Origin: Agelas oroides
Lineage: Eukaryota > Porifera > Demospongiae > Agelasida > Agelasidae
DNA: 64,000 nt
Direction of reading: 5' to 3'
NCBI GenBank assembly: GCA_949130485.1
Contig: OX422197.1
Coordinates: 6,862,991 to 6,926,990 of the forward strand
The notes below the pieces were generated by a model. That model was not told where the DNA came from. It saw nothing but the letters and a program-made list of their open reading frames with translations, and searched no databases. Of this stretch, positions 2,886 through 29,700 are shown piece after piece. Numbering within the stretch: the stretch's first letter is position 1; each line of letters starts with the position of its first letter. A program made the translations under genes and the position numbers.

Positions 2886-3389
2886 CTAGTTAAACCCAGT
2901 CTGAGAGTTGGTTAAACCCAGACTTTTTTTCATTCCGGATTTTGTGAAGCTGTGAGACAAAATCTGAAATGGAAACCTAGGTGTGAAGCTACCATTGCCC
3001 TCGATCCCTTGTGTACCCTTTCCCGCTTCTCACCTTCTCAGCTACTCTCTTTCTCTTTCCTTTTTCTCTCTTCCCATAGACAATAAAACAACAGAGAGGA
3101 AGAAGACTTATGAGATGAGGGGGGAGGAAAGAGCCCCATGATATTTTTGTTCTCTGCAGGAATGAAGTTTGAAATTCATCAGTACCAGGAACTGTCATGT
3201 CAACCCCCTGTCAGTATGAAATGAATTGATGTAACCTGAGTTTTAATGACCACATTTAGCTGTTGGAGGTACTCAATGTGAACTTACACTGGCATCACAA
3301 GTCCACAAGGAACTATTCCAAATATAATACCATTCTGAAGAATTTCTGTTTGTTGGTCAGCATGCGGAAGTAAAGCCTAGTACGAAGAG

Positions 3390-6300
3390 AACAAGCCAAA
3401 ACATTAATGTGGACAAACACTAAATTCTATATTCTCTGCTTCTAACATTCTGAAGAGTTTCTCTTTGGTAGTCAGCATGCAGAAGTAAAGTGTACAAAAA
3501 GATCCAGCCTGAGAGTTGAATGTGGACAAACACTAAATTCTATATTCTCTGCTTCTAACATTCTAAAGAGTTTCTCTTTGGTAGTCAACATGCAGAAGTA
3601 AAGTGTACAAAAAGATCCAGCCTGAGAGTTGAATATGGACAAACACTAAATTCTATATTCTCTGTTTCTAACATTGTGAAGAGTTTCTCTTTGGTAGTCA
3701 GCATGCAGAAGTGAAGTGTACAAAAAGATCCAGCCTGAGAGTTGAATGTGGACAAACACCAAATTCTATATTCTCTGCTTCTAACATTCTAAAGAGTTTC
3801 TCTTTGGTAGTCAACATGCAGAAGTAAAGTGTACAAAAAGATCCAGCCTGAGAGTTGAATATGGACAAACACTAAATTCTATATTCTCTGTTTCTAACAT
3901 TCTGAAGAGTTTCTCTTTGATAGTCAGCATGCAGAAGTAAAGTGTACAAAAAGATCCAGCCTGAGAGTTGAATGTGGACAAACACTAAATTCTATATTCT
4001 CTGCTTCTAACATTGTGAAGAGTTTCTCTTTGGTAGTCAACATGCAGAAGTAGAGTGTACAAAAAGATCCAGCCTGAGAGTTGAATGTGGACAAACACCA
4101 AATTCTATATTCTCTGCTTCTAACATTCTGAAGAGTTTCTCTTTGGTAGTCAGCATGCAGAAGTAAAGTGTACAAAAAGATCCAGCCTGAGAGTTGAATA
4201 TGGACAAACACTAAATTCTATATTCTCTGCTTCTAACATTCTAAAGAGTTTCTCTTTGGTAGTCAACATGCAGAAGTAAAGTGTACAAAAAGATCCAGCC
4301 TGAGAGTTGAATGTGGACAAACACTAAATTCTATATTCTCTGCTTCTAACATTGTGAAGAGCTTCTCTTTGGTAGTCAGCATGCAGAAGTAAAGTGTACA
4401 AAAAGATCCAGCCTGAGAGTTGAATGTGGACAAATACTAAATTCTATATTCTCTACTTCTAACATTGTGAAGAGTTTCTCTTTGGTAGTCAACATGCAGA
4501 AGTAAAGTGTAAAAAAAGATCCAGCCTGAGAGTTGAATGTGGACAAACACTAAATTCTATATTCTCTGCTTCTAACATTGTGAAGAGTTTCTCTTTGGTA
4601 GTCAACATGCAGAAGTAAAGTGTACAAAAAGATCCAGCCTGAGAGTTGAATATGGACAAACACTAAATTCTATATTCTCTGCTTCTAACATTCTAAAGAG
4701 TTTCTCTTTGGTAGTCAGCATGCAGAAGTAGAGTGTACAAAAAGATCCAGCCTGAGAGTTGAATATGGACAAACACTAAATTCTATATTCTCTGCTTCTA
4801 TATAACGTTGTGAAGAGTTTCTCTTTGGTAGTCAACATGCAGAAGTAAAGTGTACAAAAAGATCCAGCCTGAGAGTTGAATATGGACAAACACTAAATTC
4901 TATATTCTCTGTTTCTAACATTGTGAAGAGTTTCTCTTTGGTAGTCAGCATGCAGAAGTGAAGTGTACAAAAAGATCCAGCCTGAGAGTTGAATGTGGAC
5001 AAACACTAAATTCTATATTCTCTGCTTCTAACATTGTGAAGAGTTTCTCTTTGGTAGTAAACATGCAGAAGTAGAGTGTACAAAAAGATCCAGCCTGAGA
5101 GTTGAATGTGGACAAACACCAAATTCTATATTCTCTGCTTCTAACATTGTGAAGAGTTTCTCTTTGGTAGTCAGCATGCAGAAGTAAAGTGTACAAAAAG
5201 ATCCAGCCTGAGAGTTGAATATGGACAAACACTAAATTCTATATTCTCTGCTTCTAACATTCTGAAGAGTTTCTCTTTGGTAGTCAGCATGCAGAAGTAA
5301 AGTGTACAAAAAGATCCAGCCTGAGAGTTGAATGTGGACATATACTAAATTCTATATTCTCTGCTTCTAACATTCTAAAGAGTTTCTCTTTGGTAGTCAG
5401 CATGCAGAAGTAGAGTGTACAAAAAGATCCAGCCTGAGAGTTGAATGTGGACAAACACTAAATTCTATATTCTCTGCTTCTAACATTGTGAAGAGTTTCT
5501 CTTTGGTAGTCAACATGCAGAAGTAAAGTGTACAAAAAGATCCAGCCTGAGAGTTGAATATGGACAAACACTAAATTCTATATTCTCTGCTTCTAACATT
5601 CTAAAGAGTTTCTCTTTGGTAGTCAGCATGCAGAAGTAGAGTGTACAAAAAGATCCAGCCTGAGAGTTGAATGTGGACAAACACTAAATTCTATATTCTC
5701 TGCTTCTAACATTCTGAAGAGTTTCTCTTTGGTAGTCAGCATGCAGAAGTAAAGTGTACAAAAAGATCCAGCCTGAGAGTTGAATGTGGACAAACACCAA
5801 ATTCTATATTCTCTGCTTCTAACATTGTGAAGAGTTTCTCTTTGGTAGTCAGCATGCAGAAGTAAAGTGTACAAAAAGATCCAGCCTGAGAGTTGAATGT
5901 GGACAAACACCAAATTCTATATTCTCTGCTTCTAACATTGTGAAGAGTTTCTCTTTGGTAGTCAGCATGCAGAAGTAAAGTGTACAAAAAGATCCAGCCT
6001 GAGAGTTGAATGTGGACAAACACTAAATTCTATATTCTCTGCTTCTAACATTCTGAAGAGTTTCTCTTTGGTAGTCAGCATGCAGAAGTAGAGTGTACAA
6101 AAAGATCCAGCCTGAGAGTTGAATGTGGACAAACACTAAATTCTATATTCTCTGCTTCTAACATTGTGAAGAGCTTCTCTTTGGTAGTCAGCATGCAGAA
6201 GTAAAGTGTACAAAAAGATCCAGCCTGAGAGTTGAATATGGACAAACACTAAATTCTATATTCTCTGCTTCTAACATTGTGAAGAGTTTCTCTTTGGTAG

Positions 6301-9300
6301 TCAGCATGCAGAAGTAAAGTGTACAAAAAGATCCAGCCTGAGAGTTGAATGTGGACAAACACTAAATTCTATATTCTCTGCTTCTAACATTGTGAAGAGT
6401 TTCTCTTTGGTAGTCAGCATGCAGAAGTAAAGTGTACAAAAAGATCCAGCCTGAGAGTTGAATGTGGACAAACACCAAATTCTATATTCTCTGCTTCTAA
6501 CATTGTGAAGAGTTTCTCTTTGGTAGTCAGCATGCAGAAGTAAAGTGTACAAAAAGATCCAGCCTGAGAGTTGAATGTGGACAAACATTAAATTCTATAT
6601 TCTCTGCTTCTAACATTGTGAAGAGTTTCTCTTTGGTAGTCAGCATGCAGAAGTAAAGTGTACAAAAAGATCCAGCCTGAGAGTTGAATGTGGACAAACA
6701 CTAAATTCTATATTCTCTGCTTCTAACATTGTGAAGAGCTTCTCTTTGGTAGTCAGCATGCAGAAGTAAAGTGTACAAAAAGATCCAGCCTGAGAGTTGA
6801 ATGTGGACAAATACTAAATTCTATATTCTCTGCTTCTAACATTCTAAAGAGTTTCTCTTTGGTAGTCAGCATGCAGAAGTAGAGTGTACAAAAAGATCCA
6901 GCCTGAGAGTTGAATGTGGACAAACACTAAATTCTATATTCTCTGCTTCTAACATTGTGAAGAGTTTCTCTTTGGTAGTCAACATGCAGAAGTAAAGTGT
7001 ACAAAAAGATCCAGCCTGAGAGTTGAATATGGACAAACACTAAATTCTATATTCTCTGCTTCTAACATTCTAAAGAGTTTCTCTTTGGTAGTCAGCATGC
7101 AGCAGTAGAGTGTACAAAAAGATCCAGCCTGAGAGTTGAATGTGGACAAACACTAAATTCTATATTCTCTGCTTCTAACATTCTGAAGAGTTTCTCTTTG
7201 GTAGTCAGCATGCAGAAGTAAAGTGTACAAAAAGATCCAGCCTGAGAGTTGAATGTGGACAAACACCAAATTCTATATTCTCTGCTTCTAACATTGTGAA
7301 GAGTTTCTCTTTGGTAGTCATCATGCAGAAGTAAAGTGTACAAAAAGATCCAGCCTGAGAGTTGAATGTGGACAAACACCAAATTCTATATTCTCTGCTT
7401 CTAACATTGTGAAGAGTTTCTCTTTGGTAGTCAGCATGCAGAAGTAAAGTGTACAAAAAGATCCAGCCTGAGAGTTGAATGTGGACAAACACTAAATTCT
7501 ATATTCTCAGCTTCTAACATTCTGAAGAGTTTCTCTTTGGTAGTCAGCATGCAGAAGTAGAGTGTACAAAAAGATCCAGCCTGAGAGTTGAATGTGGACA
7601 AACACTAAATTCTATATTCTCTGCTTCTAACATTGTGAAGAGCTTCTCTTTGGTAGTCAGCATGCAGAAGTAAAGTGTACTAAAAGATCCAGCCTGAGAG
7701 TTGAATATGGACAAACACTAAATTCTATATTCTCTGCTTCTAACATTGTGAAGAGTTTCTCTTTGGTAGTCAGCATGCAGAAGTAAAGTGTACAAAAATA
7801 TCCAGCCTGAGAGTTGAATGTGGACAAACACCAAATTCTATATTCTCTGCTTCTAACATTCTGAAGAGTTTCTCTTTGGTAGTCAGCATGCAGAAGTAAA
7901 GTGTACAAAAAGATCCAGCCTGAGAGTTGAATGTGGACAAACATTCTATATTCTCTGCTTCTAACATTCTGAAGAGTTTCTCTTTGGTAGTCAGCATGCA
8001 GTAGTAAAGTGTACAAAAAGATCCAGCCTGAGAGTTGAATGTGGACAAACACTAAATTCTATATTCTCTGCTTCTAACATTGTGAAGGGCTTCTCTTTGG
8101 TAGTCAGCATGCAGAAGTAAAGTGTACAAAAAGATCCAGCCTGAGAGTTGAATGTGGACAAACACCAAATTCTATATTCTCTGCTTCTAACATTGTGAAG
8201 AGCTTCTCTTTGGTAGTCAACATGCAGAAGTAAAGTGTACAAAAAGATCCAGCCTGAGAGTTGAATATGGACAAACACTAAATTCTATATTCTCTGCTTC
8301 TAACATTGTGAAGAGTTTCTCTTTGGTAGTCAGCATGCAGAAGTAAAGTGTACAAAAAGGTCCAGCCTGAGAGTTGAATGTGGACAAACACCAAATTCTA
8401 TATTCTCTGCTTCTAACATTGTGAAGAGTTTCTCTTTGGTAGTCAGCATGCAGAAGTAAGTGTACAAAAAGATCCAGCCTGAGAGTTGAATGTGGACAAA
8501 CATTAAATTCTATATTCTCTGCTTCTAACATTGTGAAGAGTTTCTCTTTGGTAGTCAGCATGCAGAAGTAAAGTGTACAAAAAGATCCAGCCTGAGAGTT
8601 GAATGTGGACAGACACTAAATTCTATATTCTCTGCTTCTAACATTGTGAAGAGCTTCTCTTTGGTAGTCAGCATGCAGAAGTAAAGTGTACAAAAAGATC
8701 CAGCCTGAGAGTTGAATATGGACAAACACCAAATTCTATATTCTCTGCTTCTAACATTGTGAAGAGCTTCTCTTTGGTAGTCAACATGCAGAAGTAAAGT
8801 GTACAAAAAGATCCAGCCTGAGAGTTGAATATGGACAAACACTAAATTCTATATTCTCTGCTTCTAACATTGTGAAGAGTTTCTCTTTGGTAGTCAGCAT
8901 GCAGAAGTAAAGTGTACAAAAAGATCCAGCCTGAGAGTTGAATGTGGACAAACACCAAATTCTATATTCTCTGCTTCTAACATTCTGAAGAGTTTCTCTT
9001 TGGTAGTCAGCATGCAGAAGTAAAGTGTACAAAAAGATCCAGCCTGAGAGTTGAATGTGGACAAACAATAAATTCTATATTCTCTGCTTCTAACATTGTG
9101 AAGAGCTTCTCTTTGGTAGTCAGCATGCAGAAGTAAAGTGTACAAAAAGATCCAGCCTGAGAGTTGAATGTGGACAAATACTAAATTCTATATTCTCTGC
9201 TTCTAACATTCTAAAGAGTTTCTCTTTGGTAGTCAGCATGCAGAAGTAGAGTGTACAAAAAGATCCAGCCTGAGAGTTGAATGTGGACAAACACTAAATT

Positions 9301-11335
9301 CTATATTCTCTGCTTCTAACATTGTGAAGAGTTTCTCTTTGGTAGTCAACATGCAGAAGTAAAGTGTACAAAAAGATCCAGCCTGAGAGTTGAATATGGA
9401 CAAACACTAAATTCTATATTCTCTGCTTCTAACATTCTAAAGAGTTTCTCTTTGGTAGTCAGCATGCAGAAGTAGAGTGTACAAAAAGATCCAGCCTGAG
9501 AGTTGAATGTGGACAAACACTAAATTCTATATTCTCTGCTTCTAACATTCTGAAGAGTTTCTCTTTGGTAGTCAGCATGCAGAAGTAAAGTGTACAAAAA
9601 GATCCAGCCTGAGAGTTGAATGAGGACAAACACCAAATTCTATATTCTCTGCTTCTAACCTTGTGAAGAGTTTCTCTTTGGTAGTCAGCATGCAGAAGTA
9701 AAGTGTACAAAAAGATCCAGCCTGAGAGTTGAATGTGGACAAACACCAAATTCTATATTCTCTGCTTCTAACATTGTGAAGAGTTTCTCTTTGGTAGTCA
9801 GCATGCAGAAGTAAAGTGTACAAAAAGATCCAGCCTGAGAGTTGAATGTGGACAAACACTAAATTCTATATTCTCAGCTTCTAACATTCTGAAGAGTTTC
9901 TCTTTGGTAGTCAGCATGCAGAAGTAGAGTGTACAAAAAGATCCAGCCTGAGAGTTGAATGTGGACAAACACTAAATTCTATATTCTCTGCTTCTAACAT
10001 TGTGAAGAGCTTCTCTTTGGTAGTCAGCATGCAGAAGTAAAGTGTACAAAAAGATCCAGCCTGGGAGTTGAATGTGGACAAACACCAATTCTATATTCTC
10101 TGCTTCTAACATTCTGAAGAGTTTCTCTTTGGTAGTCAGCATGCAGAAGTAAAGTGTACAAAAAGATCCAGCCTGAGAGTTGAATGTGGACAAACATTAA
10201 ATTCTATATTCTCTCCTTCTAACATTCTGAAGAGTTTCTCTTTGGTAGTCAGCATGCAGAAGTAAAGTGTACAAAAAATCCAGCCTGAGAGTTGAATGTG
10301 GACAAACACTAAATTCTATATTCTCTGCTTCTAACATTCTGAAGAGCTTCTCTTTGGTAGTCAGCATGCAGAAGTAGAGTGTACAAAAAGATCCAGCCTG
10401 AGAGTTGAATGTGGACAAACACTAAATTCTATATTCTCTGCTTCTAACATTCTGACGAGTTTCTCTTTGGTAGTCAGCATGCAGAAGTAAAGTGTACAAA
10501 AAGATCCAGCCTGAGAGTTGAATGTGAACAAATACTAAATTCTATATTCTCAGCTTCTAACATTGTGAAGAGTTTCTCTTTGGTAGTCAGCATGCAGAAG
10601 TAAAGTGTACAAAAAGATCCAGCCTGAGAGTTGAATGTGGACAAATACTAAATTCTATATTCTCTGCTTCTAACATTGTGAAGAGTTTCTCTTTGGTAGT
10701 CAGCATGCAGAAGTAAAGTGTACAAAAAATCCAGCCTGAGAGTTGAATGAGGACAAACACTAAATTCTATATTCTCTGCTTCTAACATTGTGAAGAGTTT
10801 CTCTTTGGTAGTCAACATGCAGAAGTAAAGTGTACAAAAAGATCCAGCCTGAGAGTTGAATGTGGACAAACACCAAATTCTATATTCTCTGCTTCTAACA
10901 TTCTGAAGAGCTTCTCTTTGGTAGTCAGCATGCAGAAGGAAAGTGTACAAAAAGATCCAGCCTGAGAGTTGAATATGGACAAACACTAAATTCTATATTC
11001 TCTGCTTCTAACATTGTGAAGAGTTTCTCTTTGGTAGTCAACATGCAGAAGTAAAGTGTACAAAAATATCCAGCCTGAGAGTTGAATATGGACAAACACT
11101 AAATTCTATATTCTCTGCTTCTAACATTGTGAAGAGTTTCTCTTTGGTAGTCAGCATGCAGAAGTAAAGTGTACAAAAAGATCCAGCCTGAGAGTTGAAT
11201 ATGGACAAACACTAAATTCTATATTCTCTGCTTCTAACATTGTGAAGAGTTTCTCTTTGGTAGTCAGCATGCAGAAGTAAAGTGTACAAAAAGATCCAGC
11301 CTGAGAGTTGAATGTGGACAAACACTAAATTCTTC
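3390..11335. repeat. 113-bp satellite array, about 70 units
   Basis: Unit runs GTGGACAAACACTAAATTCT ... GATCCAGCCTGAGAGTTGAA. Units are highly similar, with recurring variant bases (GTAGAG or GTAAAG; CTAAAG, CTGAAG or GTGAAG; CAACATG or CAGCATG) that form higher-order blocks. A diverged unit begins near 3,340 and the last ends at about 11,335 in unique sequence. The many ORFs on the minus strand only reflect the period and do not look coding. Confidence 0.97.
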
Positions 11336-11666: not shown

Positions 11667-11789
11667 ATGGCGTCGGGAGGTGGAACTGGAGACAAAAGTG
11701 CACCTCCTCTCCCCGACCATGCTGAAGCTGATCCGAAAGGAGGTGACCCTAAGAAGCCTGTGAAACGTTCTGATTTTAAGTTAGGAGGG
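11667..11789 (+). CDS. Gene A exon 1 (start codon, N-terminal 41 residues)
   Basis: Begins ATGGCGTCGGGAGG in context CAAAG-ATGG and encodes a Gly/Pro/Lys-rich polar segment starting MASGGG and ending KRSDFKLGG. The donor is GG|GTAAGTG, phase 0. The start is supported by the paralogous exon at 56,621, which shares the MASGG start, the Pro-Val-Lys stretch and the SDFK motif before its own phase-0 donor. The segment looks disordered and has no recognised domain. Confidence 0.7.
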
Positions 11790-14700
11790 GTAAGTGTCCG
11801 TAGCAGTATAATACTAAGCTGCCCCAAGGATTGTCATCAAGCAGACTGTTTAGTCCCGCAAGCCAGACCCATGCACTTCTTCTCTAGGTAGTAGGTAGGA
11901 TGGCAGTGATGCATGCACGTACATATACTAGCCTCACAAGCCACACCCTCACACAAATGCTGGGAAGGGGGGTGGAGGGTGTTAGTCTCGCAAGCCAGAC
12001 CCACTTCCGCAAAAAGAGGGAAGGGTCTGGTGAACTGCGTATACAAGCCGTGTCCCACTGGAATGCAATTAGCTGGATGATGTATCAGAGATTTTCAAAT
12101 AATGCACTCTTGAATTAATACCTGTTGCGGAGTAAGCACACTCCCTGAGAAGTATAGTCAAAGTGTTTTTACAACTCATGCAGTAGCAGAAAAGATGTCC
12201 TAGCTCTCTTTCGCCGTTTTCAAGACTGCTATTGCTACTCAAACAGTGATGTAATGCGTCATGTGACAAAATACTGCAACGTGATTGGACCGCACTGTAC
12301 AGTGCGGCGGGACACGGCTTGTATACGCAGTTCTCCAGACCCTTCCCTCTTTTTGTGGAAGTGGGTCTGGCTTGCGAGACTAGGAGGGTGTGTGGGTGTG
12401 ACCTGCAAGACCATGCATGTGGACACACTGTTGAACTGCACCTCCAGCAAGGGATAGTCACATCTTACCTGCAGAAGTAGGATCAAAATGAAATCAGACA
12501 ATCAACATACACTTTAAGAGCTTCCAAGGAATGATGACTGCCACTGACTCATGCCCAGTGCGTGAGACTTACACCCAATGTGTAGGTCTGTAGTCTCATG
12601 GGCCAGACTCTCCCCATGTGAGATTCTGGCCCATGAGAGCAGATCATGACAGATCAACAAGACCATGACAGATCAACCAGATCAACAACATTATTTTTCT
12701 TAGATACTGCAGGGGTGTGGCTACTATTTTGTCATTTTAACGACCGAAAGAGTGACTATATTGCCAATCAAGATGCTTGATTTTGGTTTCGAACACTTAC
12801 CCGTTGTCTAGTGTCCCACAGTGTGGCTATCCTAAAACTAGACTGGTCGTCAAGTCTCCTTGTCCTAGTGGAGTTGATCCCTCATCATACTAGTGTCCTA
12901 CAGTGTGGCTGTCCTGCAATTCTCAAGTCTTCCCTAGTGGAGCGTGGCTCTTTGCACTTGTTGTATGATGAGGTTTTGACAGACTCTTGTAGCCCACACC
13001 CGGGGGAAATCAGGAATTCCATTTATGGTGGCTAGGACAAAATCTGTTTTACCCTCAGAAAACCACAGTATTACTTAACAAAAGAAGGAAGGGCGTGTTG
13101 AAGGAGAGGGTTATTTAGAGAGTAACATAAGGATGTAGAGTAGACAAGGAAGTACTTGTTATCATTGTCACTAACTGCTGCATGTGTGTGAGTCAGATTG
13201 CTGGTCCAGTGGACCTCCCTCCCAGTGACACACACTCACACACCCACTGCCTGGGGAGGACAAACTGTAGCTCAGTCAGCCTTCTCTTCTAACAGACTCT
13301 ACTAGACTCTAACAAATTTGTTGGATCATGTGATGCGTGGCGTCCTCTGATATGCTACGTATGGTTGAATAACATGTTGTGTAGAGTGGACACATGTTTA
13401 TATTGCTCACTGCCTCTCTCCCCTCACTGATTACCCCAGAATCTCTCTCTGGTAGACAAGTGGAGCAAGCTAGTAAGTTTCTGACCACTCTTGTGTTGTG
13501 ATTATCTGGTGTAGAAACACTTTTGTCCCCATCATAAATGATCACCATCACAAATGGCCACACAGTGCCAGTGATGCTGGTGGCAGGAATGTGGGTACAA
13601 GTTAGCCTCATTCCCAGGCCACTCCCACCCCAGCTTTTGATCACTTACAGTATGGGGGGAAGGCCTGGAAGAGTTTCACATGTGATGTATACTGACACTG
13701 ATGTCACAGAATCTGTAGAAACCTTTCTAACCTGCTACAATGAAGCTAAAGAAACTAGACAAACTCCAGACGAGAGGAAGGACCTACCTCTAAAACATAC
13801 CCAGAAGATTTGAAACAAAACTGCTAAGAGACAGCTGTGATAGAAAGCTTACAAGTTAGTAAAGTGCTTGTATGTTCTGTCCAGTGAGCCATCACACTTG
13901 GACGTTTCAGTACTTGTATCTCAGCACCCTTCAAAGGTAGGGCTTATACTTGTGATAGGTTTTATTCACTCAGTGCAGCTCTCAGCTGGCTGTTGTACCA
14001 CCATCTTTGTAGCTGCAACAGAGTGTGAGATACAGCTCAATGGCCTCCGATATTTTGAACAGCTGACATTTTGTGATGTGTGTGGTATGCATCTTCTTTG
14101 TATCCTCCTCACCAAGAGAATATCTCTGTTTGGACAGTTGAAGCTACGAGAGTGTGTCGTACCTCGTGTTATGAAATGACAGAACAAAACACAACAGGAA
14201 GCCTCACCCTAACTTCTGGTTATTGTCAAGTTCTTTTCTTCTTCCCACTTGATGTTGCACTACAAGTGAAAACCTTCCAACCCTCCTCCTCTCTCATACT
14301 GCAAACTATCAAAAGGATGGGCGTGGCCTGCATGATAACGAGGCTAGGTTGAAGTGTAGTCAGTAGAGAACAGTTTCACAATTATATCTGCACATGATCA
14401 TGTGGGTCCTGATTTGGTACCCTCGTGATCAGCAATTCAGGGTATAACATATCCATATGCAGTGAGTGTATTGGGTGTAAAGGTTAGGGATTGGCATTGT
14501 TTGTGATTGCTGTGATGTTTCATAATCTTTCACCATGGTTATCATTAGCCTTGTTCCCAGGCCTCCCCCATTTTGCTGTGATGTTTCATAATCTTTCACC
14601 TGGTTATTGTAGTACTAGGATTAACGTAAACTGGAAAAATTTTGGTATTAAATGTTTTGTAGGCCTGTGCAGCAACAAAAGTTAAACTCATGAAGACTTT

Positions 14701-17700
14701 CATGAAAAAAATTCAGCCTGAATATGAGCCTCATAGCCAGCCCTTCAGATTCACTTATAGCACTAACATGTGGTAGCTATAAGTGCTGGTAGCAATAAAC
14801 ACTGGGGTAGAATACCTTAGTAACGAACTAGGCTACAGTGAGAGTGTAGTGCGTTCATTTCACAATGTTGATTCACAGCGGTGTCCAAAGGGTCATTGAC
14901 TATCTACTCTTTTCCGTGCATGCCTGTGGTAAAGCCGTAAGCTTGAATGACACTCAATCTAATAATTTCATCTGTAAAATATGTCCTTAACATTCATTTG
15001 ACATGCTTTTAACATAAATTTTCAACTTAAATATTCTTTGATTTACAAATACTGAGATATCGTTGAATAAAGACCTGGTTATCATTAGTTTGTTCCCAGG
15101 CCTCCCCCGTTTTTGTACCTTCTGTTTGAGTTTACAAAAATACACGGAAATGGAAAAGTGGAGAAGGCCTGGGATCATTCATCACGTTAGTGAATGCAAG
15201 GTGTACGTAGGGTGAAGAAGCTGATATTCAGATGTATACGTACTAAGCTGTTCCTTATCAGTCGAGACAAGTTGGTTTGACCGCATGAATGTCTGGAGTC
15301 CTGATCAGGAGTGGAGTGCTGCGAATGAACAATTTAGTGCATTGTTTGAGATTGCCCCCCACTCCCCTACGTCCATCTTGCATCCACCTGACATCACTCA
15401 CTGACCTTTTCCTTTTTTCACCACTCTTCTGCTTACATGGATCTGTGTATTACTGTGAACACAAACGGAAGAGTAAATAACAGGGCTGGCCTAGGAATGA
15501 GGCTAGGTGATTGTAGCACTGAGGTTATTGTTGGACAATGATCTGAGGTGCGGGCACATTTACTTGGGGAGGGGGAGGGGCTGACATTATGGAGGCTGTG
15601 AAGGTGTTGATCATCAGTGTGAAGCACAGGAAACATTTCAGCATGATTTGAGCTATCATATCATGAAGCACTCTTGGTGTGTTATAGTGTTTTTGGTCTG
15701 CTCTTAGCTACTGTCACTGTAAGACCAAGATAATAGTCAACCTCATCTTACACACCAGCTGAGTGTGGGATATTTATACTAGCACATTGATGGACATTGT
15801 AAATATTGGAGGGAGCTATAGCCCTCTATGCTGTGATACAGGTGAAAATATTATCTACTGTACATGTGTGGAGTGGGTGTTATGAGGGTGTTATCATTGT
15901 CTGTCTCCCCTCACTGATTCTCCCAGAACATTGAGAAGAAGATACAGTTCCTGGTAGGTTCGAGTACAGACATGGTTGTTGGTAGCCACCAGCTAAACTG
16001 CACACAGCCATTGTTATTGTTGTAATCACATTCCTCACTGAAGTATGTCAGATGATAGTAGTTACTAGCATGAGGTGGACATGTGTTGGGGGTGTGTCCT
16101 TCATGTTTCCACTCCCCTCTCCTCTACTGCCCCAGACTCCTTCAAGACGTGAAGCTGTAAAGGAGGACATTACAAAGGTATGTGAGTCCATGTCAGCCTG
16201 CAGTGAGGAGCATGTTACATACAGACCTTATGTGAATGATGTCACATGCTATATCTCTGGATGTTATGTCATCAGCTGCGGCCATCTTGAGTGGCAAAGA
16301 ACAATGGTGAACTGTACAGTGTGACCTGTCAATTGCCTCTGTTTGCAGGAACACATGAACCTAGCTTTATTGTCACTCTGAATGCACAAGATGTCAACAT
16401 GGCCTGCATTTGACTGAAGCCATTAAGCTTACGTACCTGCATGTTTGCTGAAAGTTGTGAACTCACAAACCACACTGCTATACCATTGAAATACTGCATT
16501 TTGCCACTCAAAATGGCCACTTAGTATCCACAGTTTCAGTTTACTGTTCACTGTCCATTCACTAGCAGTAACATAACTGCATGAGGTCTATCTCCTGTTC
16601 ACTCCTGTCTCCCCCCACACACAGTGGAAGCAGCTCACAGAGCAGGAGAAGAAGAAGGTAGGTACAATCCTCACATTATAAAGCTAGCTCCTGGAAATCC
16701 CTACCCTCGTACCCAGGCCTCCAACCCAGTGTTTGTCACTTGCAGTACTAAAGGCCAGGTATTAATCATCTCATGCACTGATGTACCTGGATGTTAGGTG
16801 GACGTCTGGAGGCATTGTAAATCCCAGAAAATCCCAAACTGGTCTTTAGCCTAGATGTTTACAGCACTGTTGCAATTGCTCGAGTTTTAGCTAACTTGGT
16901 ACTCAGCTACTGGCCTTGACTGAAAAACGACATTTTAGGAATGTGCCACACCTCCAGACATTCACCTGATGTCCAGGTGTGTCACTGCACGTGATGTGTT
17001 TTACTGAGCCTTCTCCTGGTTTAGTGCTGCAAGTGGCAGAAGCTAGTTTGAAGACCTGGGTACAATGCTACCACTGACCATGTGTATGGTACAACTATTA
17101 GCTGTTGTTGACATGGTTACAACATGTGCCAACACAATGTAAACAAACATCCTTATGGTAGCAAAACTAATTCCAATCACAGAATTCATATTGGAATTTT
17201 AAGTAACTGTACAGGTGAAGGTATGAATTTGTAGCCTCGTTCACAGACCTTCCCCGCCTCTACTATTTGATTGCTTCCACTATGCAAATATGCACAGTAC
17301 AAGCCCTTGATTGTAATGTCTGTTCAAGGACTGGAAGGCCTGAATGTTCACAACGCAGTGCTAATACAACTCATTGTTCAGTACACTTGAGACTGATTAA
17401 CACAAAGTTGGAATTATAACAGTCAGGCACTGCCTACCTTCTGTCTACTGACGTTACATGACATCACCACACATGATGAGATCTCCCAGGTTTTCCCCCT
17501 CTGTGTTAGCATACTAAAAGCAATCAAATACTGGAAGTGGGGAAGGCCTGGGAACGAGACTAAGGAACTTGTTCATATTGCTAGTAGTTATGTATCTTAC
17601 ATGTGTGTGTCGTCCATTTGCTCGTGCAGTGTGGGAAATGATGAGTATGCATTATATAGTGACGTGTGCTGATAGAGCTTGAATGTTTGAGGGGCTTGTA

Positions 17701-20700
17701 AATAGACCTGGCCTTCCCATCCATACACCATTTCACCTTGCATGTGTATGCCACAGCAGGGTAAACCAATTGGTTGTGTCTGTCAGTCAGAATAGAATTT
17801 TCAGCAGTTTTTTTTATGTTGCCGGAAGTCCCTGCACAAACTGTCCTCATACCCAGACGGCAAAATCACCATCTGCAGGATTGTGTTTACATACACTACT
17901 ATTCGCTACTATAGCTATGTTTTTTGTTACAAGAGGAAGGTGTGTAGGGTAAGTGCTCTCCTGGGCACTTCTAGTTGTGTTGTAAGAACCAAATTTTCAG
18001 GGTTTTTTTACTATCGGAAGTCCCTGCACGGACTGTCCTCGTACACAGATGGCAAAATGTTTGTCTGGGTATAAAACTGTGAGTGAAATGGCAAGACCCA
18101 GCCATTTCAGAATGTGTAGACTACTGCTTGTTACTAGCTACGTGTTTAGTAGTTTCAAGAGATGGCTAAATGCTCTTCTATAGGCAGTAATTATCACAGT
18201 GAAAGAACAGTATGTGATGCTATGTTTGACTCCCACACTGAGATTACAAGCATGCATGCAAATCAGAGACATCAATGTCAAATCTTGTATTGGTCCATGT
18301 TGCTGGCTGTGAGTGTGCACCTTTTCATAGTAGCTATCATGCACCATGCCAGGTACCCTCATTAGTTCACGATGGTACTGATGGTCACATGTAGTATTAG
18401 GTACCACTAGTTCACGATCGTACTGATGGTCCCATGTAGTATTAGGTACCGCTAGTTCACGATCATACTGATGGTCACAGTGTTAGTGTGTTTGGTTACT
18501 GCTTGATTACTGTGTGGTAGTGTGTACATGTTTATGGTGTGTACATGTTCCCATGTTCTCTCCATTTATTAGCTGCTGAGACAAGAGGAGAGAGAAGGAA
18601 CACAACGTCACAGACAGGTATGTGTGTGTGTCAGTGGACGTAGGTTGTCCTTGTGTTCATCAGTGTGAGTGGTGTTGTTAGGCCTGCTGGTTGAGATGAA
18701 CTGTGAGCATCCATTTCACTGCTTCACCTGCTGCTGTGTTTCTTGTTCCACCTCCAGGGTGTCCAAAGACGTTTTTCAGTGGTAAGTACATTCAACAGTA
18801 CATGCTGCATAGTGAGCAAAACTCACACAGTATGTGACTACTATAGATGGCAGATGGTGAGTGTTATGTGAAATTAGGCAGAAGAGAGTAGAAGCATGCA
18901 ATGACCACAAACATTCAAACAGCTAAGCACCTGGTGCAGTGTATGTCAGGTCAAACTAGTAAAAAGGAACAACCATGTCAGTGCTTCTTATGGATGATGC
19001 TGATGTATTCAAGACCACTGGGTACTGTGTGTGTGGCAGACATTGGAACATGTGCAGACACATAGTTCTATGTGTTCCATCATAGATAATAGACCACTGA
19101 AACGGGATTGGAAACAGACAAAAAATTTACGGACAAACTCGGGCAAAACGCCAATGATGTCACGTTGAATCCTCGTTCCGGTGTTTCGGTTAGAAGGTGG
19201 TGCCCACTAACAGGTGTACGATCGTTTATCTCCCGCGCGGGTCATCGAAGTAGAGGTTCTTGTGCATTTACTGATATACCACGGTATCTACAACATTCTG
19301 GTAGAAAATTGTACTATGCACAGTTGTGAATTGATTTTTATGCAATGTAGAAATGCTAAAATAATAGTTTCGTAGTTTTTCCTGGAAAATAAACAAGGCT
19401 ACCCAATGATGCAAGCTGTCATAAAGTGTAACCATTAGCAAAGAATGTAACTGAGTGGCTTATTTCTTTGTGATACAGTACACAGTTTGATGGGAGGTCT
19501 TGAAAAGTGTAAATAATGTGAAAACTCTTGTAGTTTTCTAGAGAGGTCTGTACCCTGGTTTAGGTAAAGTCTGCTGGTACAGTATTAGCAGTACATAGGT
19601 CAATGTAATGCTGACAAAACAATAGAGCTGCAGTAATTGTGTGCACTTTTCTCCAGCTTTCTGAACAGGTGCCTCCAGCTCATGCAGAGGACATATCAAT
19701 CTGTCTTAGTCGTCTTCAGGCCTGCTGATAATTTTCAGGACTCGTGAATATCCCTCCATCGCAATAGCAGTCTGCCAGAAGCCATTTGACATTCGGGGAA
19801 AGAAGAAACACACATAACCGCCGCTCTCGAACAGTCGTCTACTGCCAATGCAGTGTGCGTCAGATCACGTGACCGAAATGATGATTCGACGTAAACTTAT
19901 TGCCGTTTCCAATCCCTGTTCATAGCTCTATTATCTATGGTTCCATTACTTGCTTGTTATGTATGCAGTACCCGGCAGTTGACATCCAGAGTCCATTTTT
20001 ATCTGCCTTGCTTCTGGAACTTGTCATGTTTTACTGTCAGACAATTGAACTGCTTACTTCCACTTTGCTGAATGTTGGGACCATTTGAGCTTTGACCCCA
20101 ATGTGTGGTTGTTGTGTGCTCCTACTCTCCCTCCACTTCTCTCACATTGCATGCTCCTGACAGTACATACTGCACAAACTATTTTCATTATTTCATAGTG
20201 TCAGTAAACATTCAGCATTCTGCCATTTATACTGGTACTTGAGAGGTTTGATGTTGATTACCGTATAGCGGGTATTTTTCGTGGGGGTGTATTCTTCGTG
20301 TTTTTCTCAGTCGAGTGGGGTCCACGAAAAATTAACCCAAGAAAATGTGTGACTCGTATCCCCGTGCGTGTAGTTCTACAGACAGTTGTGTCCATGAAAC
20401 ACGTCGCTGCTACAATAGCTATCCTGCCAATAATACTGCACAACTCTCCGTTGCGAGCATCTCTGGTATCAACTATAGCTAGCTTGCTTTGCGCTTGGTG
20501 GATGTCAATTTCCTTTCCGCGAAAATTTAACCCGCGAAAATTTTCCATAATACAATAGATCGTGGTTCCACAAAAATTTTGCCCTGCGAAAAATACCCGC
20601 TATACGGTACTAGAAAGACAGTATAGACACTTATGAACAGTGATGCAAGTGCTGAGAAATAAGTCTAAGGGAAACATCTGGGATTCGGCTGAGATTTGAA

Positions 20701-23700
20701 CTCAAGACGTTCTGAATACTAGTCTTACCACTAAGCCACTGGGACCCCTGGACAGGGGAGTGGAAGACAAGCTACCTGTAGCAGCAATGCCTGAGGAGCT
20801 CAGCTGAAGTTTGTTTGATTCACACTCTCCCTCAAGTATTTAGTATTCAGAAGGTCTTGGGTTGAAATCCCACCTGGATCCCAGATATTTTCCGTGGGTT
20901 TCTTTCTCACTCTCTCAGCACTTCTGTCACTATACTAGCACTCTTTGAAGTTGCCTAGTAGCTACCCCTCTCCCTACTTCATGTGTCAGTACAGCTCTCC
21001 CCACACCCTTGGTTTGATACAGTCCTTCATGTGCCACACCTCCTGCATGTACTGGGGAGACACCACTGTACATTATTGGTAGGGGTGCAGGGTCGGTGGA
21101 GACAGCATACAGTGTACTACCATAGCTGGGTCAGTCTCCATTGTGAAGGCTAAGCATGTAGATTTACTGTAGGTGTGGTCTAGGTAGTTGCATGCTAGGT
21201 AGAAACACCACTAACAAGTAGCCTCGTTCCCAGGCCACTCCCCCCTCCAGTGTTTGATGGCTTGCAGTGTTTTGTTTACGTGGTAGGAGAGCCTGTGGAG
21301 GAGGCTAACTAACAAGAGTGCTTCCTTCTTCATGTGCACTGATCATGCATCAGTCAGTGTATAATGAATTGAAAAGTGCATAACCACGCCCACCTTAGTG
21401 AGGTGGATGTTAACGACCCTGCACATTGGTGTAGTGTGAATTAAGATCATCATGAAGTTGGTATTGAGTATGGTGTACTACATTTAATGTAAATTTTTAG
21501 CAGGAATGTATTTTTGTGAATTTGATTTTCCACAGGTAGATAGTTAGTTTCCACAGTTAGTTTCAGTTTCATATATAGTTCATAGTGTCCAATTGCTTTC
21601 ATTATCACAAAAGGACATACACTGTCTAGTACCAGTGGTACTAGTGCTGGTACTTACTGACTCGGACACAACTGTTTGTTGGCCTCTTCTGTAGCTCACT
21701 GTAGCCTCACTGCTGGTAAAGTAGAGGACTTCTTGAGGTATCTCGTGGCAGCTGTAGTTCTGTCTGACATTACCTCTTTAGAAAATGTTTAACAACTGGC
21801 AAAACTCAATGCATACAACCTGGCTGTGATTGATATGAATGATGAATTTGCTGACCTTTGAACCAGCAGTCATTCATGTAGACTCATACATTCTACACAT
21901 AAATTTCTGGCTTTAGGGTACGACGTGCTTGGCAGCTTAAGTGTCTTTGTAGTTTATATTGACAAGAGGATGATACAAGTGTTCCAGTATTCATTCATGT
22001 AGACTCATACATTCTACACATAAATTTCTGACTTTAGAGTGTGACTTGTTAGACAGTTTGATGGGCCCTTGTCTGTAGTGTATGAATAGACAATTGACAA
22101 TGGGATGATACAAGTACTGTTTCTTGTGTATTCTATTTAATGCTGACCGTGCTGTTTGTTTGTGTACTTGAACTGTATCTAAGTTTAGTAATTAACTAGT
22201 TGTCTCTCCTCATCTTTTGCGCCCCCTCCCTGTACTTGAGCTACCCTCTCTCCTCCTCTAGCTGCCATGTTTATTTGAGTCAAGAGACACACGTCTGACC
22301 AGACAATTACAAACTGTGTTTATAAATGTGCTAGCAAAGGACTTTGACCTTCCCCAGTCTCATACCCAGACTACCTAGTCTGGATATGAGACTAACCTTC
22401 TCGTGGGCCATGTAGCTGTTAGATACAAGTGTAGTGATACAAGGAATAGCCTTGATAGAGTCTCCTCAGTATCTCACATTGTGGTAGGTATAGAGCAAGA
22501 TGATCATGTAGTAAACAGTATATTGATCATCATGGTGTAAACAATGTGTGTCCCACTTGTGACCTAATCCTGCCTTCATCTCCCCTCCAGCTGATACAGC
22601 GCTACTCACAGGTACGTACTGTACGTGTGTGTTCCTCTTGTGTACTAATCAGTAGCAGTGTCATGGTAACCAACCACAAGAGTGTGGCTAATGTCATGGT
22701 ACAATATTGTGGCCCATTGTTCTAGTGAATGTATCATTATGAGCCTTAGAATGTGTAGCTAATTGACAGGGACTTCCCCATCATTGAATACCATAATGTA
22801 TCATGACACATGGAATGATATGGGAAGGGGTCTAGCTGTGCGTGACTTACTGGATCAGTACCTCTCTAGCAATGGCACATAATAGACATTCAGTACACAG
22901 AAGTGAAGGAGTAGAGTATTTGGATTGATATTTCCCACCGTACACCTGTGGAATGTGATATTGGTAGATTTGTATGGTTGTGTAGTTGTGGGACTAGAAA
23001 TGGTGTGCGATATTCATTTCACTTTCATTGTCCACCTCCTCCTCTCCCTCTCCGTTACCTTCCACTGTAGCTCAAGGAAAAGGCTGAGCAACGACAAAGA
23101 GAGCTGGAGGAGGTAAGCCAAGATTGTGTGTCAACAATGGTGTGCTGGGCTGTACCCCACTTACACCTAGTTGGTAATTTTATGTGTTCCGAAAACAATC
23201 AAAGTTAGTGTTTGTGAGAGTTTTGTGGTTTAATTTTTATGGTCATGGAATTATTCTACACAACTTGAAAAATCTGACTTTCCACACTTGTGCCAGTCCT
23301 GGATAGAAACTGAATATTATTCTGTTGCATATTTTGCGCTCATCACTGAGTTTGAACCACTGTATTGTTGAATTTCCATTGAGGGTGGGGCTCATCGTAG
23401 GTGTACGAATATCTGATGTGTCTGTGAAGTGCATATGAGCCCCGCCCCTAGTGGAAGTCCTGCAATACAGCTCATTGAAGGTGGTGATGTACTCAAAATA
23501 CACAATGTACTAATATTTGAGAGGACTGCCACATTTATGGTAGCTCAGTGCATAGTCTTGTGAAGCCACATGTGTGAGCTATAGTCTGGCTTTGTGAGAC
23601 CACTCAATGTCAGTACGGTGGCTTTCACTGTATGAGAGGGTAGAGACAGAGGTACACCTGTGGTGGTGGACTGTGTGAGAGGGTAGAGACAGAGGTACAC

Positions 23701-26700
23701 CTGTGGTGGTGGACGGTGTGAGAGGGTTAGAGACAGAGGCACACCTGTGGTGGTGGACTGTGTGAGAGGGTAGAGACAGAGGTACACCTGTGGTGGTGGA
23801 CTGTATGAGAGGGTAGAGACGGAGGTACACCTGTGGTGGTGGACTGTATGAGAGGGTAGAGACGGAGGTACACCTGTGGTGGTGGACTGTATGAGAGGGT
23901 AGAGACAGAGGTACACCTGTGGTGGTGGACTGTATGAGAGGGTAGAGACAGAGGTACACCTGTGGTGGTGGACTGTATGAGAGGGTAGAGACAGAGGTAC
24001 ACCTGTGGTGGTGGACTGTGTGAGAGGGTTAGAGACAGAGGCACACCTGTGGTGGTGGACTGTATGAGAGGGTAGAGACAGAGGTACACCTGTGGCGGTG
24101 GACTGTATGAGAGGGTAGAGACAGAGGTACACCTGTGGCGGTGGACTGTATGAGAGGGTAGAGACAGAGGTACACCTGTGGTGGTGGACTGTATGAGAGG
24201 GTAGAGACAGAGGTACACCTGTGGTGGTGGACTGTATGAGAGGGTAGAGACAGAGGTACACCTGTGGTGGTGGGTACCTGTTGTAGGAGAGGTGCTTGTG
24301 TGTACCAGAGAGCCTGGAAACCATGGCAATCCCTTATGGTGTTGTTGTATCAAGGTATACTGGTGTGATTGTCAGGGCCTTACCAAGGTGTTTCCCGCAA
24401 GGAGATAGACCATGTCCGCTCTGATAAAAGTTGGCAGCCAACTTCATTAGCATTTGAACTGCACCATATGCGGGAGTGTTACAACTACACACACTAATTC
24501 ATATACCATATTAGGAACAAGATCTGGTTTAGGTCTTTCTGTATGAAATGTGCAAAAATTAATGTCCAGTAAAAGTTACCAACCATACTGCTTTAGTTAA
24601 CCACCATAATATGGTATGTTGTTGAGGGGTATTGAAAAAACACAAAATTACAAGTTCCGTGCAAGTGTATTTTCTCCTGTGCTATGACTCACTCCTAGCC
24701 TCGGCAGTGTTAGTGAGGTAGGGTTGATGTTCTCTGTGTGTTCCTTGCTGTGGCCGCTACTTTGTTAGTGAGGTAGGGTTGATGTTCTCTGTGTGTTCCT
24801 TGCTGTGGCCGTTACTTTGTTAGTGAGGTAGGGTTGATGTTCTCTGTGTGTTCCTTGCTGTGGCCGCTACTTTGTTAGTGAGGTAGGGTTGATGTTCTCT
24901 GTGTGTTCCTTGCTGTGGCCGCTACTTTGTTAGTGAGGTAGGGTTGATGTTCTCTGTGTGTTCCTTGCTGTGGCCGCTACTTTGTTAGTGAGGTAGGGTT
25001 AATGTTCTCTGTGTGTTCCTTGCTGTGGCCGCTACTTTGTTATGTAGTTCTTGTCATTTAGCTGCATGATGACAGTTGACATCTTCAGTAGATAGTTTTC
25101 AGTACTGGGCTCTCGTCTCCCTTTCTATACACTAAATATTTAGCTATCTATGGGTAGAATACCTTGGTAAATTCAGCGTATATACTTGCAGCATGGTCGT
25201 GCTGGTCGTGCTGTCTGGCGCCAGTAGCTAACATTGCCAGGGGTCATCTGTTAGCTGAACTAACTCCTCCGTTATTATATGTAGCCATTTTGTGTATGGG
25301 AAAGAGCATAAACCATAGGCTGAACTTTGTCAGCAAAACAAACCGCATCAGGTACGGGGCTAAACAAACCAGTTCTCAGCCTCTCCAGGTATCACAGCAA
25401 TAAAAGCACAACAGCAATGTAGAGTCTTAGCTGGCTAACAATATTGGAAGATACAAATGAACCCGATTGAGGTAGCTTATATAGCTACTACAGAGGTCAG
25501 ACAAGTGCAAATTTGCAATTATTGTGGGTGCAGCTTCCATTTTGTTTTGCTGTTACGTTTTGTTTTTTTGATTTACTAACATCCCATCAGTGGCCATTAA
25601 TGAACAGTAAAATGATCGAGTGTCCCGCAACACTTGGTATTAACCCCCTCCTTCCTCATTGTGTTAAACAAGTTTGTTTTAGCCTCATCCCCAGGCCCCA
25701 CCTAAAAAATCAGGAATAGGGCCTGCAGCTGGTCACACTTGTAGAAAATATTTTGTGTGTTGAGTCAGCAGTCTTGTTTGGGATAGACAAATCAGATTCA
25801 TCCATTACCAATCACTGAGTTCTTGACCATGTGAAATATATATGTGTGTCCTGAATAGAAGCAGATCTGTTTCATATTTCGAGTGCCTCACCACATTTGA
25901 AGCACTGTATCACTAAACTTTCATTATGGGCGGGGCTCATACACACTTCATGGAAACATTAGTTATTCATGCGTCTACACGAAGCACGTATGAGCCCCAC
26001 CCTTAAAGGAAGTTTAGTGATGCAGCACTTTGAACATGGTAATGTGCTTGAAATACACAATGGAATGATTCTATCCAGACTGCCACACATAGTGTTACCC
26101 TCCTCCTCCCCCTCATTGTGTTCACTGTTTAGAGGTGTGTCATAGTTAGGAAGTAGTTTGTATGTTGTCATCAGTGCAGTACAAGTGGGTGTGGCAGTGA
26201 AATAAGCATTCATATCTGATGGGATGAGGCTAAGTTCACCATGATCCATGTTGCAGTCACGTCATCTTATTATTTTTAACCATCGGCAGCGTGATAGTTA
26301 AATACATTGGACCATTCAGTGTGGCTGGTCATGTGAAGTGGCTTATTGGCCAAATGGTTGAGGGAAAGAGCTAACTTAGGGTTAGGTTTATGGCTGGGGC
26401 CAGGGGATGCACAACATTTTTTCCCTCTGGTCTTATGAAATGTGATTAACATCTTTGTCTTTGTTGGTTCGGTAGTCTCGTATGGGTATTCAGTAAGATG
26501 ACGTAACCACAACATGGATTGCGGTGAACGTAGCCTCTCCCATATGTGATGGTAGCAATAAGGTTGGTTGACAAAGCATTTCACCAGCGTCATTCCCAGG
26601 CCCCTCCCAAACCTAGTTTGATTGTAGAACAGAGAGGACCTGAAATAATTAATCACATGGGTGATGTAGAGGATAGAGAGAAGGTAGAGAGGACTTAGTG

Positions 26701-29700
26701 GAATGTAGGCAGATCGTCAACTGTGCCCACACATGCAGTTATGCAATTGACAGTCATGTAGCTGTGTTCTGACAGGGAAGTTTTTTTGAGCAGTGTAGTA
26801 GTGAAAGTTTGAGGAAAGCCCGGAAAGGTGCATTCTTAGGGTTTGTTATCACTTTGAAAGCAATTCTCTAAAGGGTGCGTATGGCATTCAATTTGCCAGG
26901 TGAGCGAGGAAGTTAGCATAATTTACTAGTTTGTGTACACTCACCCATATGACTTGCCGTACTACCAGACAATGCAGTGTGGTCCTGTTCAGTCCCCGGC
27001 CGTAACACTTTCACAACTAACCAAGTGTATAATTTAGACGAAACTTAGGCTCATTCCCAGGTGAGCTCCTGGTCAACAAAACAATCAACAAAGTGTGGGG
27101 AATTTGAGTTGTTTGCCCACATGCAGTTAAGTTCTCTCCACCTGTGACGTTTCTCAATCACGTGTTAAATTTTACCATGCAGGCTTTCCTTTTTAGAATT
27201 TTGTCATTCACACATGGGAAGGCCTGGGAATGAGGCTAGTATTCAAATACTGAATTGGGGTAAACTACATTCACCTCCCCTCACTCTTCCCCCCCAACTC
27301 TGAGTGGCTAGTCCCATTCTGTGATGTGCTCATACAACACATCATATTGCCCTCCCACCTCATTGTGTTGTGTTTGTAGAGATGTGTTTTAATTAGAGAG
27401 TAGTTTACAGTACAGTTGGTGTGGTGTTGAAATCTCTTGATATTGCACACACATGGTCAGGATTTTTAGAAGCTAGGGAGGCACCAGAAACCTGGGGAAG
27501 GGTGCAGCAGCTCTGCTGATTTTCAAAGCCTTAGAAGAGCTCAGATGACTATGTCCAATCAAGTGGTAGTATTAACCTTGTTTCAGACTGAGAGTTTGAC
27601 ACCATATAAGGACATGTCCATGACATTATCATGTGTCCCAGCTCCATCATGTGTTGTTTAACACACTGTCACAAACGTAGCCTCGGCTCTTCCCACTACC
27701 CCTCCAGGAGAGCCTGGGAACAAGACTATCATGAACTAGTACCGACCATGCTCTGCACCAGCAAATCAAACACAACAGTGACACTTACTGATGGTAGAGT
27801 TTATGTGATGCTAGGCATATCATATAGATTCTGAATTTTTGGCCCTCCAAAGTGGTGTTCGTACGGAACCCCTCACTCCCCTCCCCTTTCCTCTCTGTGG
27901 GCTCAAATCTACTGATGTCACTCCCACAACAGAAATGACAGAATGTACATTCATACATCTGCCAGTAGCAGTGAAGTTAGTGGGATGGGATGGATAGAAC
28001 ATTTCCAAATTTGAGGATTGTATTCATGTGCCCTCCCACCTCAAATGTTAACTCTAGATTATGAATACACAATCTGAGAAGGTGCATAGCGAGGAAGGTT
28101 TCCAGGAAATTCTCTTTAGAGAAGGCACAAACAAATTTAGATCAAGATTGGTTTTGTTGCTGGTTTCACATGCTGAATTTTATGGACTTGTCACACACAC
28201 GAATTGCCGTTCAGGGTAGCCGTTGTGCTGTGATGATGAGCAGATTTGTATAAACCTATATAGTAGGGTATGCTGGTGGATAGCAAGCCAGATACAGGCT
28301 GACCATATGTATCACTAGTAGCTAATGACATGTCTTCACTTGGATTGAGCTTGAGTAGTAATTACTCTAAATGTAGCCAAAGTACAAACATTTACCAGTG
28401 TCTTCCCTCCCTCCCTCCCTCCCTCCCTCCCTCCCTCCCCCTCCCTCCCTCCCTCCCTCCCTCCCTCCCTCCCCCTCCCTCCCTCCCTCCCTCCCCCTCC
28501 CTCCCTCCCAATAATCTTGCATGTGTCCTCCGAATGCACACAACTCACACACGCACACACACATGCAGGCACACACACGCACACTTGCACACACGTGCAC
28601 AAATTCCGCACACGCAAGCACACGGACGCACACACATATACAAAGACACACAGACACAGACACACGCGCACACACACAAAGATACGCACGCACCCACACA
28701 CACACACACGAGTTCAACCAAAAGAACATTCCACTAAGTATCCAATACCCAATATCCTACATGTGTGTGTCCCCTTTCCGCCCCCTCCTTCCTCCCCTCT
28801 CCCTGTCCCTCCTCTCCTCCCTTCCCCTCCTTCCTCCCTCCCCCCTCCCTCACTCCTTTCCCCTTCCTTTCTACCCCCTCCTCCCACTCCTCTCCTTCCT
28901 CTCAGAGTAGCTCAGGATATCCTTTTAAGGTTATTGAGTGCACTCCTGAGACAATTTAGCACATTTACACTGCTGCTTCCTTCATGATTTACACTTTGGG
29001 ATTGGGCTCTGATATTTGATAATATTGACCAATTTTTGGATATGATATTGTCCCACTGGAACTGCTGCTTCTTGATTTACACTTGGGGGTTAGGCTCTCC
29101 CCACTCCTTCCTCGCCTTTCCACCCACTCCTTCCTTCCCCTGCCCCCAGTCCTTCCTCTCCCCTCCCCCCACTCCTTCCTCCCCCCTGCCTCCACTCCTT
29201 CCTCTCCCCTCCCCCCACTCCTTCCTCTCCCCTCCCCCCACTCCTTCCTCTCCCCTCCCCCCACTCCTTCCTCTCCCCTCCCCCCACTCCTTCCTCTCCC
29301 TTCTCCCCACTCCTTCCTCTCCCCTCCCCCCACTCCTTCCTCTCCCCTCCTCCCACTCCTTCCTCCCCCCTCCCCCCACTCCTTCCTCCCCCCTCCCCCC
29401 ACTCCTTAGTCTCATGCTCAGGCCCCACCTGAGAGGGTCTGGTGACATTCGACCGATCCCTCGGGCTTTATTAACATTGATTGCTTTCTGCGGAGAATTT
29501 TCCAACCACCAATCACATTGCAGAAAACACAATCTGTAGTGCAACACCGGAAATCCTTGGCTACTTCAACATGATGACACAGCACTTTTTGGGCATATAA
29601 ATTAGTTATCAGTTTGCAACTATGCATACACTAAGCTTTGAATTGTTAATTAACAAAGCCTGAGGAGTCAGCTGAATGTAACCAGACCCTCTCCTCGCAG

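Follow-up and report, generated by a model that had tools for sequence, protein, structure and literature searches.

How can the short coding exons of a gene change faster than the introns between them? The question is raised by a tandem gene family in a 64,000-nucleotide stretch of DNA (hereafter the window; C15:6862991-6926990), where a preliminary description had reported that two neighbouring copies, genes A and B, differ more in their microexons than in the adjoining introns. Coordinates are window positions unless prefixed C15, and the exons described lie on the forward strand. Gene A is modelled as a first exon (e1), eight phase-0 microexons of 21-45 nt (e2-e9), a coil exon (e10), and three exons for, in order, a P-loop GTPase, a 66-nt linker, and a Death domain. 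Here we compare exons and introns among tandem paralogues of one genome; recurrent diversifying selection on a predicted recognition helix, joined to a putative death-signalling GTPase, is probably the best explanation for what we find.

The pattern is visible in A and B alone. Microexon e4 (42 nt; 16136-16177 in A, 60753-60794 in B) differs at 7 of 42 bases, and on re-derivation these amount to four replacements (T/D, R/W, R/H, and A/I) with no synonymous codon; e2 (33 nt; 13440-13472 and 58101-58133) differs at 7 of 33 bases, five in replaced codons and two synonymous. In-frame indels separate the two copies of e3 (27 nt at 15927-15953, 45 nt at 60526-60570; an 18-nt indel) and of e6 (45 nt at 18573-18617, 33 nt at 63948-63980; a 12-nt indel), and e5 (33 nt; 16625-16657 and 61277-61309) is identical. 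The exon counts first reported all hold. When e4 is taken together with approximately 150 bp on each side (342 bp in all), A and B have 13 mismatches, 7 of them inside the exon. Alignment of further copies, in which exon and intron divergence could have proved equal, keeps the exon excess in six copies, and in seven for e2; the excess between A and B is confirmed as real and not a product of chance.

The strength of the excess was measured in four copies—A, B, and two others, c1 and c2—using ungapped columns of a MAFFT whole-unit alignment, from which 24,230-25,850 was excluded as unreliable. Variable columns make up 47 of 211 in exons against 655 of 8342 in introns (p 1.4e-10), and columns with at least three bases make up 13 of 211 against 11 of 8342 (odds ratio 50, p 1.7e-15). 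Microexons e2, e3, e6, and e7 are each more divergent than every ungapped intron window of the same length, with gap-free columns numbering 7 of 27 for e3 and 19 of 45 for e6; for e8 and e4, respectively, 0.12% and 0.34% of intron windows reach the level of the exon. The excess extends beyond the exons originally described, to e7 (24 nt; 18758-18781), e8 (21 nt; 22591-22611), e9 (42 nt; 23071-23112), and e10 (178 nt; 32220-32397).

What kind of change is it? Codons were counted in six copies for e2 and e4-e9 (80 codons), with e3 excluded on account of its indels and the fragmentary copy c5 excluded from pair counts. Mean nonsynonymous divergence (pN) is 0.158, mean synonymous divergence (pS) is 0.090, and flanking introns stand at approximately 0.046 (mean of 15 pairs, range 0.030-0.064); pN lies above both of the others in all 15 pairs. 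Nonsynonymous change above the intron rate rules out relaxed constraint as the cause. The change is also concentrated: 45 codons have an invariant residue, 19 have two residues, and 16 have at least three. These 16 hypervariable codons are codons 1, 4, and 7 of e2 (with 6, 6, and 3 residues), 1 and 4 of e4, 6, 9, and 13 of e6, 1, 2, 5, and 8 of e7, 1, 4, and 5 of e8, and codon 1 of e9, the tail of which is conserved. Their pairwise difference is 0.655, 0.631, and 0.193 at codon positions 1, 2, and 3, and at 9 of the 16 a single third base is found in all copies. At the 45 invariant-residue codons, third bases differ at 0.046, which is the intron rate. Mapped onto the intron tree, the first two positions of the hypervariable codons take 2.28 steps per column against 0.146 in introns (751 columns), and intron bases no more than 12 bp from an exon remain at background (0.133; 181 columns). 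Hypervariable codons thus lie at fixed sites within a homogeneous framework, as they do in recognition systems of the HNWD or PRDM9 type.

The arrangement of the variable residues suggests a helix with one selected face. Variability was scanned for periods of 60-180 degrees per residue in 5-degree steps, with permutation p values, in eight tests that included the e10 tail and a combined set. With e6-e9 read in splice order the best period is 100 degrees per residue (p 1e-4); the same best period is found in e7-e9 (p 6e-4) and, within its two sequence classes, in e10 (44 residues, p 9e-4). Since the period crosses the e6/e7/e8/e9 joins, it supports the splice order. In e7-e9 the eight residues with at least three states span no more than 140 degrees (p 0.0013 by permutation among the first 20 residues), and the within-class variable residues of e10 fall inside 180 degrees (p 0.0039, for a 17-residue stretch of our own choosing). 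Charged, aromatic, and small residues all occur at the variable sites, which sets these apart from a coiled-coil core. Of 59 codons of e10 compared between A and c2, 11 differ nonsynonymously and 2 synonymously, with the replacements mostly in 32331-32375; between B and c1 the corresponding counts are 7 and 0 of 52. The e10 flanks of B and c1 are approximately 98% identical; those of A and c2 are less clean, with 17 mismatches plus 15 gap positions over 398 upstream columns and 23 plus 45 over 436 downstream columns. Selection on a helix face is the part of the reading that the sequence itself shows, through the single-codon excess, the helical phasing of e6-e9 and e10, and a GTPase that stays conserved between A and c2.

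Several observations weigh against this interpretation, or narrow it. Microexon e5 is invariant in six of six copies, and e9 lies near background, its level being reached by 6% of intron windows. Exon pS is approximately twice the intron rate and exceeds it in 13 of 15 pairs; variable third-position columns (18 of 80) likewise exceed variable intron columns (108 of 870, p 0.016), and codons adjoining hypervariable ones are raised, to 0.14, 0.27, and 0.36 steps at positions 1, 2, and 3 (22 columns each). Because pS, third positions, and neighbouring codons are all raised, some linked or old change is present in the exons, although its level is well under that of the selected positions. The 16 codons were chosen for their variability, which inflates their contrast with the introns; all 80 codons together give 0.625, 0.55, and 0.287 steps per column at positions 1, 2, and 3, and in a plain count of variable columns positions 1 and 2 are not above position 3 (p 0.22). 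No significant helical period is found in e2 (p 0.24), e4 (p 0.15), or e4-e6a (p 0.46), and Pfam scores for Roc (12.2 bits in A, 13.1 in c1) lie below the cut-off of 27 bits. The earlier proposal that the N-terminal coil carries a surface for recognition or pairing gains support from the helical test: one-face placement, read as sequence periodicity only, is strong for e6-e9 and e10 and is not seen for e2, e4, or e4-e6a alone.

Could the variation be old rather than recurrent? Selection may have kept ancient differences while gene conversion homogenised the introns and framework codons—concerted evolution combined with balancing selection—but we consider this unlikely. The introns are indeed alike among copies, homogenisation is uneven (A and c2 are 95% identical over 13,172-15,818, and 24 of the 34 500-bp bins of 25.8-42.4 kb differ by 2.4% or less), and the doubled exon pS is as expected of linked old change; however, hypervariable codons with one third base and introns at background even in the 12 bp nearest the exons argue against it. 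Replacement of short segments from donor copies, as in ASSET-like segment switching, appears more improbable still. The changes in e2, e4, e7, e8, and e9 are single codons between unchanged ones, and a short-word BLAST of e2-e10 copies (for e10, A and c2 only) against the copy loci returned known exons and one 15-bp match; what speaks for switching is the in-frame block differences of e3 and e6, and the fact that B and c1 have in common both the 33-nt e6 and the class of e10. The preliminary description had left exon swapping and homogenisation of introns by gene conversion open beside diversifying selection. Neither swapping nor homogenisation with old alleles preserved is supported as the principal cause, since the bases beside saturated sites, linked third bases in particular, are mostly unchanged; at a larger scale, module differences (the e10 class and the C-terminal exon) do exist. 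Diversifying selection, the third of these options, is supported by the pN excess in every pair and by its concentration in single codons.

Two further possibilities deserve little credence. Mutation could be targeted in a way that spares third bases, as by a diversity-generating retroelement acting at AAY codons, and several codons of the form NNT, NNC, or NNG do have a fixed third base; this is nevertheless very improbable, since invariant A fills 66 of 240 exon columns and a mutator aimed at adenine would need to leave most A sites alone, a pattern that does not match the target of such an element. We know of no such retroelement diversification system in animals. It is equally hard to believe that the segments are not exons, or that alignment inflates the differences. 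The gene model was read from DNA sequence only; against an artefact stand the ungapped-column tests, the splice signals, a reading frame that all 49 of 49 exon copies keep, and a helical period across three splice joins.

On the preferred reading, the product of gene A would be a switch protein, probably cytosolic, with an N-terminal helix encoded by the phase-0 microexons and e10, a Roc/COR-like P-loop GTPase, and a Death domain. Strong recurrent selection on one helix face would give each paralogue a different binding surface while leaving the rest of the protein similar. That face may bind a changing partner—a microbial ligand, an allotypic self marker, or the coil of another paralogue—and, by what is known of Death-domain and Roc GTPases, partner binding might switch the GTPase and the Death domain might relay a cell-death or immune signal. 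A bolder proposal, which we offer tentatively and regard as doubtful, is that the array stores in the germline a set of helix "barcodes", each private to one gene, and acts as an innate immune or allorecognition locus, with each paralogue recognizing its own partner or its own kind; specificity would reside on one helix face, and further combinations could arise where symmetric microexons are skipped or where e10 and C-terminal domain classes are shuffled.

Among intracellular receptors, hypervariable recognition is best known from LRR and WD40 repeats. If the model is right, a death-signalling GTPase with its diversity on a microexon-coded helix face would solve that problem in a further way; among the papers listed by our literature searches, judged by titles and abstract openings, none is on a hypervariable helix in Death-domain GTPases. 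The appearance of the GTPase and of the Death domain joined to it may point to a sponge. Should the animal be a colonial or sessile invertebrate, the locus would offer a tangible candidate for telling self from nonself or for detecting pathogens, down to named residues. The locus is also a clean natural contrast, with neutral, framework, and selected sites one base apart.

Several known systems offer analogies, described here from parts of the cited papers. By analogy, the array gene may work like the HNWD NLRs of Podospora, PRDM9, and the ROCO genes of brown algae, with exons similar in form to those of schistosome micro-exon genes (MEGs). The HNWD genes het-d and het-e, which encode an NTPase switch protein that triggers incompatibility, are alike in their near-identical framework, few hypervariable codons, and diversifying selection on a predicted interaction surface, but their variation lies among the WD40 repeats of one gene, whereas here it lies among tandem paralogues and on a putative helix (PMC12222747). 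PRDM9 likewise has hypervariable helix contact residues within a homogenised framework; it is a DNA-binding repeat array, in contrast to the coil of a candidate signalling GTPase (PMC11703093). Brown-algal LRR-ROC-COR (ROCO) genes pair a GTPase of the Roc type with a recognition region at the N-terminus that is assembled from numerous small in-phase exons, and their selected sites lie on one face of the recognition domain (PMC11378527). The likeness has limits: Roc falls below the Pfam cut-off here, and the algal genes shuffle 72-bp LRR-repeat exons within a gene, whereas the present exons are 21-45 nt, would encode a helix, differ codon by codon between tandem genes, and are followed by a C-terminal Death domain (PMC11378527).

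Other comparisons concern the exons and the Death domain. In ASSET the exons of a gene family diverge while the introns stay similar, as they do here; in ASSET, however, whole segments switch, in contrast to the mostly single-codon changes of e2, e4, and e7-e9 and the block differences of e3 and e6 (PMC2474615). Schistosome MEGs also have small symmetric exons—here there are eight, of 21-54 nt over the copies and divisible by 3 in 49 of 49 cases—and dN/dS is reported to lie slightly above 1 for three MEG mature regions, but MEG products are secreted or gland-associated, unlike exons that feed a predicted GTPase with a Death domain (PMC4350168). Lineage-specific expansions in marine animals, including the sponge Amphimedon, join Death-superfamily domains (Death-like/TRADD-N) to variable partners, and AP-GTPases have been named apoptotic switches; domain shuffling is what is described there, as opposed to codon-level diversification of a helix face (PMC8195603).

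The model of gene A joins into a single frame of 1016 aa with one terminal stop and AG/GT at every intron; its splicing and function are both predictions. Microexons contribute 267 of the 568 nt of e1-e10. Among the 49 copies of e2-e9 there are no stops, and every copy has a GT donor; 46 have AG at the aligned acceptor (for e2, AG/GT in 7 of 7 copies), and the three exceptions have an in-frame AG either 3 nt upstream (e4 of c1 and c2) or 9 nt upstream (e3 of c6). In e3, which shows in-frame indels and replaced residues, other copies reach 54 nt. The putative first exon e1 (11667-11789; ATG, 41 aa, phase 0) has an open frame up to GT and joins e2 in frame; it is the least secure exon because its peptide is unmatched in the stretches searched, with no other match at E 1e-3 in 200 kb plus c5, c6, and c7.

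The introns have features of their own. In the e2-e3 intron, the stretch 15094-15505 has many genome copies on both strands, with long matches approximately 67-77% identical, and is probably a mobile element. A 45-bp tandem repeat lies upstream of e6 (18363-18480 in A, 63354-63872 in B), and its copy number varies among paralogues. Within the intron before e10, 28001-32000 has a GC skew of -0.50, with strong strand asymmetry and pyrimidine-rich low-complexity stretches, and the alignment contains an apparent 8-bp microinversion at 26286-26293, where A is the reverse complement of c1 (B and c2 are one base off).

The signalling half of the protein would be encoded by three exons: the conserved P-loop GTPase exon (40053-42158), a 66-nt linker exon with in-frame AG/GT (42281-42346), and the Death-domain exon with the stop codon (42517-42827). 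As for the "Death-domain GTPase" of the preliminary description, the Death domain is supported by Pfam (PF00531, 23.3 bits against a gathering cut-off of 22.6, E 7e-5); the GTPase was recognized from its open reading frame and motifs by eye, namely THRD in A, DSGGQ and THRD kept in three of three copies, and GYAGAGKT in c1. One stretch of this exon we take to be COR-like, and the Pfam search listed no COR model at E up to 0.5; the exon resembles ROCO proteins by eye only, with Roc under its cut-off and COR unlisted. A PDB search with a three-copy GTPase profile gave no credible relative (one match, E 0.49), and a single-sequence structure model of the exon was unusable (mean pLDDT 34, pTM 0.21). 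GTPase protein identity is 98% between A and c2 and 75% between A and c1. A and c2 differ at 7, 6, and 14 sites at codon positions 1, 2, and 3 in 2103 nt; the GTPase of this pair evolves under normal constraint.

Modules differ among the tandem units as well. There are two classes of e10, one in A and c2 and one in B and c1 (the latter at C15:6938847-6939003 and 6797953-6798109), and A and c1 have a Death exon in common (86% identity over 94 aa). In c2, the C-terminal exon (C15:6855606-6855893) differs from the Death domain of A despite the near-identical GTPase, which suggests that output domains have been swapped within the array; its e10 classes, combined with different C-terminal exons, read as a module shuffle across tandem units. 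A Death-like assignment for the c2 exon was made by eye and found no support from Pfam, PDB, or pairwise comparison, so we call it different only.

The copies were found by searching the 259-Mb genome (141 contigs) with window 13,400-18,700 as the query and keeping the best candidates only, which makes the copy counts lower bounds. The family has at least seven copies on contig C15: c1 (from C15:6779254), c2 (from C15:6827247), A and B (both inside the window), the fragment c5 (C15:6962687-6963704), c6 (from C15:7126170), and c7 (from C15:7170538). Microexons e2-e9 are present in six of these; c5 has an intact, distinct e2 and no further microexon was found in the 10 kb around it. Exons e7-e10 of B lie past the end of the window, and the sequence analysed stops short of the GTPase of B and of the regions past e9 in c6 and c7. 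At the other end of the window, 3328-11333 is occupied by a minisatellite of approximately 8 kb with a 113-bp unit, the shifted self-alignments of which are 93-97% identical.

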